The notes below the pieces were generated by a model. The model had not been told where the DNA came from. It saw only the letters and a list, made by a program, of their open reading frames with translations, and did not search any database. A DNA stretch of 64,000 bases from Yinghuangia seranimata (lineage in GTDB: Bacteria > Actinomycetota > Actinomycetes > Streptomycetales > Streptomycetaceae). The DNA is taken from assembly GCF_029953285.1 (NCBI RefSeq), contig NZ_JASAOI010000042.1, positions 1 to 64,000 on the forward strand, read 5' to 3'. How positions within the stretch are numbered: the first letter of the stretch is position 1; every line of letters starts with the position of its first letter. A program made the translations under genes and the position numbers. This document shows positions 25,214 through 28,265 of this stretch, piece by piece.

Positions 25214-25480
25214 TCATGCCAGGGACAGGAACAGCTTCTCCAGCTCCGCCTCGCTCATCGGCGGGGCCTCGCCGTCGGCCGCGGCCATGCACTGGCGCAT
25301 GCCGCTCGCGACGATCTTGAAGCCGGCCCGGTCGAGGGCTCGGGAGACGGCCGCGAGCTGGGTGACGACGTCCTTGCAGTCGCGGCCGGCCTCGATCATG
25401 GCGATGACGGCGGCCAGTTGCCCCTGGGCGCGGCGCAGCCGGTTCAGGACGACCTTGCTGGCATCCTCGTCGACGGTCAT
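25214..25480 (-). CDS. CsoR/RcnR-family repressor, CstR-like (persulfide or thiophilic sensor)
   Basis: All-helical DUF156 repressor of 88 aa with the N-terminal DNA-contact helix [20 protein letters not shown]. Copper-sensing CsoR uses Cys-x24-His-x3-Cys. Here Cys35 and Cys64 are kept but the His position is Gly60 (in [10 protein letters not shown]), so the copper site is missing. The two remaining cysteines are the arrangement of CstR, which senses persulfides and reactive sulfur. A TACCCC-CA-GGGGTA palindrome lies 31 bases upstream, and similar sites precede the MMPL and DUF302 genes, so a small regulon is likely. Assignment to the family is certain; inducer identity is inferred. Confidence 0.9.
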
Positions 25481-25511
25481 CTGGGTCCTCCTTGCGGCTC
25501 GTAATCCATGG

Positions 25512-25525
25512 TACCCCCAGGGGTA
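25512..25525. promoter_or_regulatory. CsoR/CstR-type operator before the repressor gene
   Basis: TACCCCCAGGGGTA has TACCCC and GGGGTA arms around CA, the C-tract/G-tract palindrome used by CsoR-family repressors. It lies in the 61-bp gap between the MMPL stop and the repressor start and would give autoregulation. Confidence 0.85.
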
Positions 25526-25541
25526 TGTGTCGCCCGGTCCC

Positions 25542-27755
25542 TCACTGGTGCGAGAACCGGATGTCCGGCAGCACGCGCCGCAGCCACGCCGGGCTCCACC
25601 ACGCCGCCCGCCCCGTCAGGCGCAGCAGGACGGGCAGCAGGACCAGCCGTACGAGCGCCGCGTCCAGCAGCACCGCCAGCCCCAGGACCACGCCCATCTC
25701 CTTCGGCGGCAGCGGCCCGGACAGCGCGAAGGTGAAGAACACCGCGACCATGACGGCCGCCGCCGCGAAGATGACCCGCCCCGAGTGGGCGAGCGCCCCG
25801 ACGACCGCCTTGCGCGGGTCGCCCGTCGACTCGTAGTGCTCCTTCGCCGACGCCAGCAGGAACACGGTGTAGTCCATCGCGATGGCGAAGATCATCGCGA
25901 AGAAGAACACCGGCGCCCAGCCGTCGAGGAACCCCTGCGGGGTGAACCCCAGGAGCCCCGCGCCGTGCCCGTCCTGGAAGACCAGCCGAGCCGCGCCGAA
26001 CGCCGCGCCGGTGGCCAGCAGGCTCGTCGCGGTGCCGAGCAGTGCCGCGAGCGGCGCCTGCAACGCGACGACCAGCAGCAGGAACCCGAGCGCCAGCACC
26101 ACCCCGAGCACGAGCGGCGTCTTGGCGTCGAGGGTCTTCTGCAGGTCGAGGTTCTCGACGGCCGCGCCGCCGACCAGCGCCTGATCGGACAGGCCGGCGC
26201 GCAGGCGTTCGACGGTGTCCTTCAGCGCGGGGTCGGACGGATCCGCCTTGGGGACGGCCTGGACGAGCCGCAGCCCGGACCCGTCGGCGGCCGGCTGCGG
26301 CGGCAGGACGGCCGCGATGCCGGGGTCGGTGGCGGCGTCCGACGCGACGGTCGCGGCCTGCTCCGCCGGGGCCACGATCTGGAGCATGCCGGGCGCGCCC
26401 GGGCCGAACGCCCGCTGGACGGCGGCGTATCCGGTGCGGGCGGAGGAGTCCTCCGGGACGACGGTGATCGACGGCATCGCGGTGCGCAGCCCGACGACCG
26501 GCGCGGCCAGCGCGACCAGGACGAGCAGCGCGGGCACGCCGTACCGGAACGGGTGGCGCCACAGGCGTTCGCCCCATGCGCCGAACCGCCGTGACCCGCC
26601 CGCGTCTTCACCCTTCCGGGTCCAGGGCAGCGCGCCGGCGTTGACGCGCGCGCCGAGCTTGCCGAGGACGGCCGGCAGCAGGGTCAGGGTGGCCGCGAGG
26701 ACGAACGCGACGGCCAGCATGATGCCGAGCGCCATCGACCGGAACGCAGGCGCGGGGACGAGCATGACGGCGGACAGACTGACCAGCACCGTGGCGCCGG
26801 ACAGCGCGACCGCCTTGCCCGCGGTGTCCATCGTCTCCCCGACGGCCTCGCGCGCGGTCTTGCCCGCGGCGAGCGCGGCCCGGAAGCGGACGACGAGGAA
26901 GAGCGCGTAGTCGATGCCGAGCGCGAGGGCGAACATCATGGCGAAGTTCATCGCCCAGATGGACGTCGGCGTGAGGTGGTTGAGCAGCACCAACGCGCCC
27001 GCGGACGCACCGAGTCCGGCCATCGTGAGCAGCAGCGGCAGACCGGCGGCGACCAGCGACCCGAACGCAAGTACGAGGATGGCCATGGTCACCGGCCACG
27101 ACAGCATCTCGGACTTCATCATCGCGTCGTGGTTCGCCTTGTTGAAGTCGCTCCACAGGACGGACGAGCCGGTCGCGGACACCTCGACGCCGTCGTGTGA
27201 CAGGGCGGCGAGCGGACCCTTGAGGTCGTCGGCGGCGCGGACCATGTCGTTCTCGTCGGCGGCCGCGCCGGCCAGGATGATCGCGGTACGGCCGTCGGGG
27301 CTGACGGTGGCGCCGGGCTGCGGCGGGACGACACCGGCTATGCGGGAGTCGGCGCTCAGCAGCGCGGTGGCGCGGGTGACGACGTCCTGGACGGCCGGGT
27401 CGGTGACGGGGCGGTCCTTCGCGACGACGACCTGGAGTGCGGTCGAGGCGTTGCCGCCGAAGTGCTCCCGCGCGAGATCGCGGACCTGCACGGACTCGGA
27501 GCCGTTCGCCTGCCAGCCGGCACCGGCCAGCGCGGACGTCACCTGCGGCGCGAAGGCCCCGAGGGCGGCGACCAGCACCAGCCACAGGACGCCGACCAGG
27601 CGCAGGCGGTCGGCGGCCCACGTACCGAGTCGGCCGAGCGGGCCGAGGCGGGCGGGGCGGCCGGGCGCGTCGGCGATCTCGGCGGCGTCGGCCGCCCCTG
27701 CGGCGTCAGGCCGGTCGCCGTGGCCGACGGGGTCGGCGGGGCGGATGGTGCTCAC
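25542..27755 (-). CDS. MMPL-family (RND superfamily) transporter
   Basis: 737-residue membrane transporter with two repeated halves, each one helix, a large outer domain and five more helices. The proton-relay Asp-Tyr pairs are in [16 protein letters not shown] and [20 protein letters not shown]. The N-terminus is a 35-residue Ala/Asp/Arg-rich tail. GTG start with AGGAGG upstream. MMPL proteins export lipids or small hydrophobic compounds; here the substrate may be related to sulfur or metal stress, since the promoter carries CsoR-type palindromes and the repressor gene lies directly downstream on the same strand. Confidence 0.9.
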
Positions 27756-27769
27756 GAGTCCTCCTGAGA

Positions 27770-27783
27770 TACCCCCGGGGGTA
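27770..27783. promoter_or_regulatory. CsoR/CstR-type operator before the MMPL gene
   Basis: TACCCCCGGGGGTA is a perfect 7+7 palindrome 15 bases upstream of the MMPL GTG start, overlapping its ribosome-binding region and likely promoter. It is the most symmetrical of the sites in this cluster. Confidence 0.87.
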
Positions 27784-27805
27784 ATGTCACGGACAGCGTA
27801 AGCAA

Positions 27806-27841
27806 TACCCCCGCCCGTATGTCAAAATACCCATGGGGGTA
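27806..27841. promoter_or_regulatory. Additional CsoR-type half-sites before the DUF302 gene
   Basis: ATACCC..GGGGTAT at 27827-27842 (TACCCATGGGGGTA) is an imperfect operator copy, 31 bases before the DUF302 ATG. A weaker TACCCCCGCCCGTA lies at 27806-27819. Together with the 27770 site they fill the divergent promoter region between MMPL and DUF302 genes. Confidence 0.72.
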
Positions 27842-27872
27842 TCGACGACAGCACCGCGAAAGGACCCCACCC

Positions 27873-28265
27873 ATGCAGTACGACCTGACCGTCCGCCTCA
27901 CCACGGACTTCCCCACCACCGTCGCCGCCGTCCGCGACGCCCTCGCCGCCCAGGGCTTCGGCGTCCTCACCGAGATCGACGTCACCGCCACCATGGCCGC
28001 CAAGCTCGACCACACGATGGAGGACTACGTCATCCTCGGCGCCTGCAACCCCCCGCTCGCCCGCCAGGCCCTCGACGCCGACCGCACCATCGGCCTGCTG
28101 CTCCCCTGCAACGTCGTCGTCCGCAGCGACGGCGACCACACCCTCGTCCAGGCCCTCGACCCGGACGTGATGGTCGCCTTCACCGGCCTCCCGGCCCTGG
28201 AACCGGTCGCCAAGGAAGCCGCCTCCCGCCTCCGCGCGGCCCTGGCGACCCTGACCGCCGCGTAA
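27873..28265 (+). CDS. DUF302 family protein
   Basis: 130-residue soluble protein of the DUF302 family (TT1751-like fold). Family-typical segments are FPTTVAAVRDALAAQGFGVL, TEIDVTATMAAKL, YVILGACNPPLARQAL, the LLLPCNVVVR strand with its Cys, and DPDVMVAFTG. The two cysteines (in GACNPP and LPCNV) are the usual conserved ones and could take part in thiol or persulfide chemistry. ATG chosen with GAAAGGA upstream; an in-frame ATG at 27819 lies inside the operators. Probably co-regulated with the divergent MMPL gene by the CstR-like repressor. Confidence 0.92.
   Translation: MQYDLTVRLTTDFPTTVAAVRDALAAQGFGVLTEIDVTATMAAKLDHTMEDYVILGACNPPLARQALDADRTIGLLLPCNVVVRSDGDHTLVQALDPDVMVAFTGLPALEPVAKEAASRLRAALATLTAA

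Follow-up and report, generated by a model that had tools for sequence, protein, structure and literature searches.

What does a repressor built like a persulfide sensor control when the dioxygenase and rhodanese genes of the canonical CstR regulon are missing from its locus? This question is raised by positions 25214-28265 of the window, i.e. the whole stretch of 64,000 nucleotides of Yinghuangia seranimata analysed here. A sequence-only reading had placed there the genes of a repressor, an MMPL (RND superfamily) transporter and a DUF302 protein, and Pfam matches to all three bear this out. The genes on either side (24700-25173 and 28312-29160) have neither a Pfam match nor a counterpart in 39 related loci, and were for this reason left out of the module. 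Taken as a whole, the locus is best explained, and in our opinion rather probably, by a CstR-type repressor placing MMPL export and the DUF302 protein under the control of sulfane sulfur.

The repressor and its operator-like palindromes

The repressor gene (25214-25480, minus strand) encodes 88 residues, which score 81.3 bits against the Pfam family Trns_repr_metal (PF02583, cut-off 22.8) and so belong to the CsoR/RcnR fold. Among its sequence matches in the PDB is 7mq1 (E 1.2e-9), which was deposited as copper-sensing repressor csoR and which we take to be the pneumococcal CstR. The substitution of Gly60 for the copper-ligand His, with Cys35 and Cys64 kept, had been pointed out before and is read directly in the protein, so that the Cys-His-Cys copper site of CsoR is incomplete. 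Orthologues share this pattern of two conserved Cys and no His copper ligand: among 89 distinct sequences, the window's included, Cys35 is present in 88 (the exception being a gap in one poorly aligned sequence) and Cys64 also in 88, while position 60 is occupied by Gly in 85 and never by His; a His lies elsewhere near Cys64 in eight. By contrast, the two other CsoR-family genes of the same genome, C50 and C27, read EEHLAHC and DEHMACC in this region, with a His where the repressor has Gly60 (a correspondence established by alignment for C50 and by eye for C27). Besides, dioxygenase or (MBL-)rhodanese genes adjoin 12 of the 17 closest relatives of the repressor in the order. The pattern common to the orthologues and the company kept by these relatives both agree with the earlier assignment of the two-Cys, no-His form to the CstR type.

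Palindromes had been announced before each of the three genes, and three exact TACCC-N4-GGGTA sites are indeed found: TACCCCCAGGGGTA (25512-25525) between the MMPL and repressor genes, TACCCCCGGGGGTA (27770-27783) directly ahead of the MMPL start, and TACCCATGGGGGTA (27828-27841) ahead of the DUF302 gene. As predicted sites, they give the G/C-tract palindromic operator before own and target genes that is expected of a CstR. With one mismatch allowed the window yields no further match, which leaves three in all where 0.57 are expected, and 3 of 100 shuffles of the window reach three matches. The whole 9.8 Mb genome contains seven exact sites, three of them at the locus; since a backwards control pattern also gives seven, this count alone is uninformative. 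The clustering is a different matter: the chance that any three of seven random sites fall within 2,330 bp has a union bound of 6e-6. Around the other four genomic palindromes (about 1.5 kb around each, by eye) no sulfur gene was evident.

Evidence for these sites also comes from related loci (n=114), in which the motif is about 140 times denser in the promoter stretches of module genes, with 125 copies in 102.6 kb, than elsewhere, with 12 copies in 1.41 Mb; in the same comparison five control patterns gave 0 or 1 matches. The exact palindrome is absent from 20 of 39 class loci. A further imperfect site, TACCCCCGCCCGTA (27806-27819), has one mismatch to TACC-N6-GGTA and might be a second MMPL site, 36 bp from the first. 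It is weak taken alone, as 14 sites of this kind occur in the window against 5.15 expected; 24 of 35 neighbouring pairs of exact sites, in the related loci and the window, are spaced by 31-40 bp. No sigma-70 promoter was recognised by consensus at the locus.

Recurrence of the module in actinobacteria

Orthologous MMPL loci were surveyed in an even draw over the class (39 loci, neighbours within about 6 kb; MMPL gene in only 37 of 394 genomes) and in the best 80 loci of a contig search. Had the three genes been rarely together in relatives, their linkage would have been doubtful; on the contrary, the repressor accompanies the MMPL gene in 31 of the 39 class loci and DUF302 in 24, next to persulfide dioxygenase in 13 and TauE in 11. 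The corresponding figures for the best 80 are 63, 51, 27 and 22. In 69 of 119 loci all three genes are clustered, with 10 different orders or orientations. The proposal that an exporter and a two-cysteine DUF302 protein are the outputs of this repressor is thus favoured by their recurrent linkage and by the concentration of the putative operator before these very genes.

Might the three genes nevertheless be chance neighbours with unrelated jobs? No repressor gene lies close by in 8 of the 39 class loci, nor in 17 of the best 80. Of these loci, some are contig ends, and 7 and 11, respectively, also lack both DUF302 and dioxygenase; an exact palindrome persists, however, in the stretch examined for 12 of the 17. 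Against chance, the frequencies of the repressor (31/39 and 63/80) compare with an expectation of about 0.4% for genomes with three CsoR-family genes each—the genomes being related, this is no formal test—and no CsoR or DUF302 match was found in the 1.5 kb flanks of the genome's other MMPL genes, 19 of which had loci available for the comparison. The locus survey, the palindrome enrichment and these flanks together rule out chance clustering, to which we give a negligible probability.

The neighbours also inform on the signal. Sulfur-type genes are found in 65 of the 119 loci, persulfide dioxygenase in 39, and YgaP-like (40), ArsR-rhodanese (16) and thioredoxin (12) genes recur. A repressor sensing copper or another thiophile, with the MMPL protein exporting a metal or a metallophore, would agree with the CsoR-family fold, with the CsoR-like operator and with the few plasmid copies of the module whose neighbours include metal genes (P-type ATPase, multicopper oxidase, alkylmercury lyase). 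It is opposed by the lack of His60 in all 89 repressors, though both paralogues have the His, and by the scarcity of copper-type neighbours, searched with one query each: P-type ATPase in 4 of 119 loci and multicopper oxidase in 5, against the 65 with sulfur-type genes. The missing His and the neighbour genes lead us to reject a copper CsoR, and sensing of copper or another thiophile appears very improbable to us. The predicted control of the module by sulfane sulfur is, on the other hand, well supported by comparison.

Among the 37 class genomes bearing the MMPL gene, a strong persulfide dioxygenase match (5e-121 or better) was obtained in 16 and a weak one (2e-65 to 4e-45) in 5, and the other 16 gave nothing at 1e-40, in a hand count with four candidates scored per genome and a few incomplete genomes; G429, one of these last 16, has a 42% dioxygenase piece in its locus. 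The 16 strong matches rule out dioxygenase as a strict alternative to the MMPL protein. Yet no full-length dioxygenase match was obtained with one query in the window's genome and in four other MMPL-bearing ones (G083, G166, G038, G017; best E 1e-11); in the window's own, whose assembly is 98% complete, the matches are short and at 6e-10 or weaker. In these five genomes the transporter and the DUF302 protein therefore look like the main output.

Could the MMPL protein be a further exporter of sulfite or thiosulfate, like TauE? The gene pattern C- D- P+ T+ M+, in which MMPL follows dioxygenase and TauE, would fit this idea and was met in 21 loci, many of them of Nocardioides. TauE, however, is found solely in loci with dioxygenase (33/33), whereas 55 of 94 repressor-linked MMPL loci are without dioxygenase in the stretch examined, so that the MMPL cargo is probably not the sulfite made by dioxygenase. 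Small anions are moreover, to our knowledge, unusual cargo for the MMPL family. We thus regard such an exporter as unlikely.

The transporter, the DUF302 protein and the proposed mechanism

The MMPL gene (25542-27755, minus strand) encodes 737 residues matching Pfam MMPL (PF03176) at 235.4 bits. The protein carries the pairs Asp282-Tyr283 and Asp628-Tyr629, which do not vary among 114 distinct sequences, that of the window being one of them, and these pairs and the MMPL domains make it a member of the MMPL/RND group. It has no cysteine, and cysteine is absent from 98 of the 114 distinct sequences; as the genome's 19 other MMPL genes include 2 that are also cysteine-free, the low cysteine content is no more than suggestive.

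Its structure leads to another reading, in which sulfane sulfur is still the signal but the cargo of the MMPL protein is an envelope lipid, moved for membrane repair or remodelling under sulfur stress. The AlphaFold2 model (mean pLDDT 86.3) fits best MmpL3 of M. tuberculosis, the trehalose monomycolate exporter (Z 52.6, rmsd 3.4, 676 aligned residues, about 25% identity), MmpL3 comes first in a profile search of the PDB (2e-69), and MmpL relatives of established function have, by their PDB molecule names, lipid or siderophore cargo. The matches to NCBIfam MMPL-type models, on the contrary, are far below the cut-offs, 187.6 against 1400 bits for MmpL3; several host genera of the module make, as far as we know, no mycolic acids; and the linkage with dioxygenase and TauE suggests a role in sulfur handling itself. 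A lipid cargo is therefore possible but rather doubtful in our eyes.

The DUF302 open reading frame (27819-28265, plus strand) matches Pfam DUF302 (PF03625) at 80.9 bits. The true start is probably at 27873, because a start at 27819 would place one operator inside the gene. Counted from there, Cys58 and Cys79 are conserved without exception in the 72 distinct sequences compared, among them that of the window. The model (pLDDT 95.9) recovers the DUF302 structures 1j3m (Z 21.1, 48% identity) and 1q9u, then 7tj1 (Z 17.5, titled fluoride transporter); no sulfur-carrier fold is evident in the remaining rows, at Z 8.8 and below, so that the function of the protein is not derivable from its fold. PMC10846046 (DUF3025) and PMC4255298 (DUF3027) deal with different families.

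Comparison thus establishes the genes, sites, conserved residues, recurrent linkage and dioxygenase context of the module. On this basis we infer the following sequence of events for the sulfane-sulfur reading. The repressor would silence three transcription units, namely its own gene, that of the MMPL protein and, in divergent orientation, that of the DUF302 protein. Once persulfide or polysulfide rises, Cys35 would be persulfidated with the participation of Cys64, and the modified repressor would leave the TACCC-N4-GGGTA sites, allowing the module genes to be expressed. The MMPL protein, presumably powered by the proton gradient via its two Asp-Tyr pairs, would clear the cytoplasmic membrane of a probably hydrophobic molecule laden with, or damaged by, sulfur, and the DUF302 protein would handle sulfane sulfur by means of its pair of invariant cysteines. 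In hosts that lack persulfide dioxygenase, reactive sulfur would be dealt with mainly by the module; in the others the module would act beside oxidation and sulfite export.

We also put forward, more tentatively and as somewhat short of probable, that export is the chief defence against sulfane sulfur in some actinobacteria, including the present one, where it would replace oxidation by persulfide dioxygenase: the CstR-controlled, cysteine-poor MMPL pump might rid the membrane of polysulfide, elemental sulfur or a persulfidated thiol, with the two-cysteine DUF302 protein as the sulfur carrier that feeds it. If so, the MMPL protein would be a dedicated exporter for reactive sulfur. The ways known to us in which bacteria cope with reactive sulfur are enzymatic (oxidation, transfer, reduction), together with export of sulfite as the end product; if a conserved pump stood under a persulfide repressor, even in genomes that gave no dioxygenase match, efflux would join them as a primary strategy. 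Such a pump would moreover provide both an unnamed MMPL subfamily and DUF302 with a function and with a class of substrates open to test.

Relation to known systems

The CstR regulon of Staphylococcus aureus differs from the present locus by its sulfurtransferase, dioxygenase and quinone reductase genes, and we know of no MMPL in it. MmpL3 resembles the MMPL protein in fold and Asp-Tyr pairs; it differs by the low identity and by a curated score cut-off that the MMPL protein does not reach. S. aureus CstR, which is named in PMC7533328, is like our repressor a two-Cys, no-His CsoR relative, and is a persulfide sensor.

The same source describes the closest parallel, SCO0620 of S. coelicolor (ScCsoR), which represses dioxygenase, TauE and rhodanese genes at ATACC-n6-GGTAT, is persulfidated at Cys37 and releases DNA with polysulfide. 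Both are CsoR-like with two Cys 29 residues apart (37/66 there, 35/64 here), have similar operators, putative in our case, in paired sites (at -48 and -9 there) and include, here by prediction, their own gene in the regulon; the outputs differ, MMPL and DUF302 presumably taking here the place of dioxygenase, TauE and rhodanese. As sulfane sulfur is reported there to influence antibiotic production in Streptomyces, the module may matter for it too. The SUL module of Arthrobacter plasmids likewise associates a CsoR-family regulator with DUF302, sulfur dioxygenase, rhodaneses and TauE, but the further transporter found in it is a major facilitator superfamily protein, and the MMPL protein described alongside belongs to another module (PMC6305408). 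TTHA1953 of Thermus thermophilus is also a CsoR-like regulator of sulfur genes, whose disulfide-linked form binds DNA less well; its Sox genes lie far from its own gene, its motif is different, and its DNA binding is reported not to be lowered by NaHS (PMC10318464).

No report of an MMPL in a CstR regulon was found in the open-licence literature.

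Repressor type and putative operators of the module

The genome is 9.8 Mb in size, and the three genes lie on its contig C20, each recognised by a Pfam match: the MMPL transporter gene (27755-25542, minus strand), the CsoR-family repressor gene (25480-25214, minus strand) and the divergent DUF302 gene (plus strand, ORF 27819-28265, start likely at 27873). An ECF-type sigma factor gene with Sigma70 regions 2 and 4 is found at 23088-23828 (plus strand); no relation to the module was seen.

The sequence-only reading had proposed a CstR-type repressor from the pattern Cys35/Gly60/Cys64, and the window protein does carry both cysteines and Gly at residue 60. 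This pattern is widely shared: among 89 distinct repressor sequences adjacent to MMPL genes, a set that includes the window protein, 88 have Cys35, the exception being a gap in a poorly aligned sequence, and 88 have Cys64; residue 60 is Gly in 85, otherwise Pro, Ala, Asn or Ser, and never His (0/89). The two other CsoR-family genes of the same genome encode His at the equivalent position. SCO0620 of Streptomyces coelicolor (ScCsoR) is reported to repress dioxygenase, TauE and rhodanese genes, to be persulfidated at Cys37 and to leave DNA with polysulfide (PMC7533328); its two cysteines are spaced by 29 residues, as in the window repressor.

An order-level search matched the repressor at 1e-10 in 115 of 197 genomes. 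Its 17 closest relatives, examined in 12 kb stretches, have MBL-rhodanese or rhodanese genes nearby in 12 cases, MMPL and DUF302 in two (loci L041 and L042), and neither of these sets in three. Over all 39 repressor-relative loci examined, two of them paralogue loci of the own genome, an MBL/rhodanese cluster was found in 26 and TauE in 17 (Pfam on representatives).

The three palindromes previously noticed (25512-25525, 27770-27783 and 27828-27841) proved to be exact TACCC-N4-GGGTA sites, and allowing one mismatch adds no further match in the window; the whole genome holds seven exact sites, these three included. With one mismatch allowed, the looser pattern TACC-N6-GGTA has 14 matches in the window where 5.15 would be expected; one of these is an imperfect site at 27806-27819, which lies 36 bp away from the palindrome next to the MMPL gene. 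Across 114 loci, the set left after removing MMPL protein duplicates, 125 exact palindromes occur in 102.6 kb around gene starts vs 12 in 1.41 Mb elsewhere, and each of five similarly built control patterns occurs at most once. An exact site precedes 50/117 MMPL, 30/89 repressor, 21/72 DUF302 and 2/52 dioxygenase matches, many of these gene starts being operon-internal. The looser pattern is present in a promoter stretch in 68 of the 114 loci and was not seen there in the other 46. Neighbouring exact sites are mostly (24/35 pairs) spaced by 31-40 bp, which resembles the arrangement of the ScCsoR site pair (-48 and -9); the motif given for SCO0620 is ATACC-n6-GGTAT (PMC7533328).

Linkage of the three genes

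MMPL orthologues were found at 1e-120 in 37 of 394 genomes drawn across the class. Of the 39 non-own loci from this draw, 31 contain the repressor, 24 DUF302 and 23 both; 13 contain the dioxygenase, 11 TauE and 19 an exact palindrome, while seven lack repressor, DUF302 and dioxygenase alike. The best 80 MMPL loci in genome_contigs, five entries of which are common to both sets, compare as follows: repressor 63, DUF302 51, both 46, dioxygenase 27, TauE 22, exact palindrome 56, and 11 without repressor, DUF302 or dioxygenase. Together, 69 of the 119 loci unite the three genes, in 10 orders or orientations. In 41 of them repressor and DUF302 point away from MMPL, 21 of these being repressor-DUF302 / dioxygenase-TauE-MMPL, many from Nocardioides; MMPL-repressor-DUF302 occurs in nine loci, the window-like arrangement in four, and the remainder show other orders.

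No CsoR or DUF302 match was found within about 1.5 kb on either side of the domain match of 19 other MMPL genes of the genome. Aligned orthologues are 59-80% identical to the window protein, vs 25-35% for own-genome paralogues; judged by these identities, the window MMPL and its orthologues form a separate subfamily. The predicted MMPL model (mean pLDDT 86.3) superimposes on MmpL3 (Z 52.6, rmsd 3.4, 676 aligned), whose Asp-Tyr pairs act in the proton relay; Asp282-Tyr283 and Asp628-Tyr629 line up with them, and both pairs are invariant across 114 distinct sequences. For DUF302 (predicted model, pLDDT 95.9) the fold match is 1j3m (Z 21.1), and Cys58 and Cys79 are invariant in 72/72 sequences. 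The structure 7tj1_A, titled putative fluoride ion transporter CrcB, shares this DUF302 fold as well (Z 17.5, 18% identity); its title may be a misannotation.

The MMPL transporter is also found, at 1e-100, on 43 of 72,556 plasmid records, 40 of them from Rhodococcus, and repressor and DUF302 lie beside it in the three plasmids inspected. The plasmid-borne module is seen in Rhodococcus and Nocardia, with integrase or metal genes nearby in those three (L160-L162); a Tsukamurella plasmid also carries the transporter. An R. fascians plasmid aligns MMPL, YgaP-like, DUF302, TauE, repressor and MBL hydrolase genes in a single row. The short YgaP-like transmembrane protein (PF11127) is near the module in 40/119 MMPL loci (e.g. 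L160, 10138-10389; L105, 3537-3833), and is possibly an additional component of the sulfur response. An ArsR-type regulator-rhodanese fusion adjoins the repressor gene in locus L100 (1828-2562; Pfam), and ArsR-rhodanese matches occur in 16/119 MMPL loci.

The module with and without dioxygenase

TauE is found exclusively alongside the dioxygenase (33/33 TauE loci among the 119); the latter is absent from the examined stretch in 55 of 94 repressor-linked MMPL loci. At the genome level, a hand count with four candidates scored per genome gave, for the 37 class-draw MMPL genomes, 16 strong dioxygenase matches, 5 weak and 16 none at 1e-40, and four of eight named genomes have no match at 1e-30. 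When six genomes were queried with an MBL-rhodanese protein, only G032 gave a full-length match; the own genome (G000), G083, G166, G038 and G017 gave short matches only, at 1e-11 or weaker. MMPL and DUF302 would thus serve alongside oxidation in some cases and in its absence in others, a pattern compatible with a cargo that lies upstream of sulfite.

Comparison with known sulfur regulons

Among the matches listed in the open-licence literature, which takes in only a minority of subscription-journal papers and bioRxiv preprints, none linked an MMPL transporter with CstR, with persulfide dioxygenase or with sulfane sulfur; in the same literature, MMPL combined with persulfide dioxygenase, and MMPL family transporter combined with sulfane sulfur, returned nothing. 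DUF302 genes are reported within sox clusters (PMC5037610, PMC11034169), in the SUL module of Arthrobacter (PMC6305408) and in connection with an sqr operon (PMC5061849). CstR regulons and the link of DUF302 to sulfur are already known; the MMPL transporter as a putative output of the regulon, and its use without dioxygenase, appear to be new.
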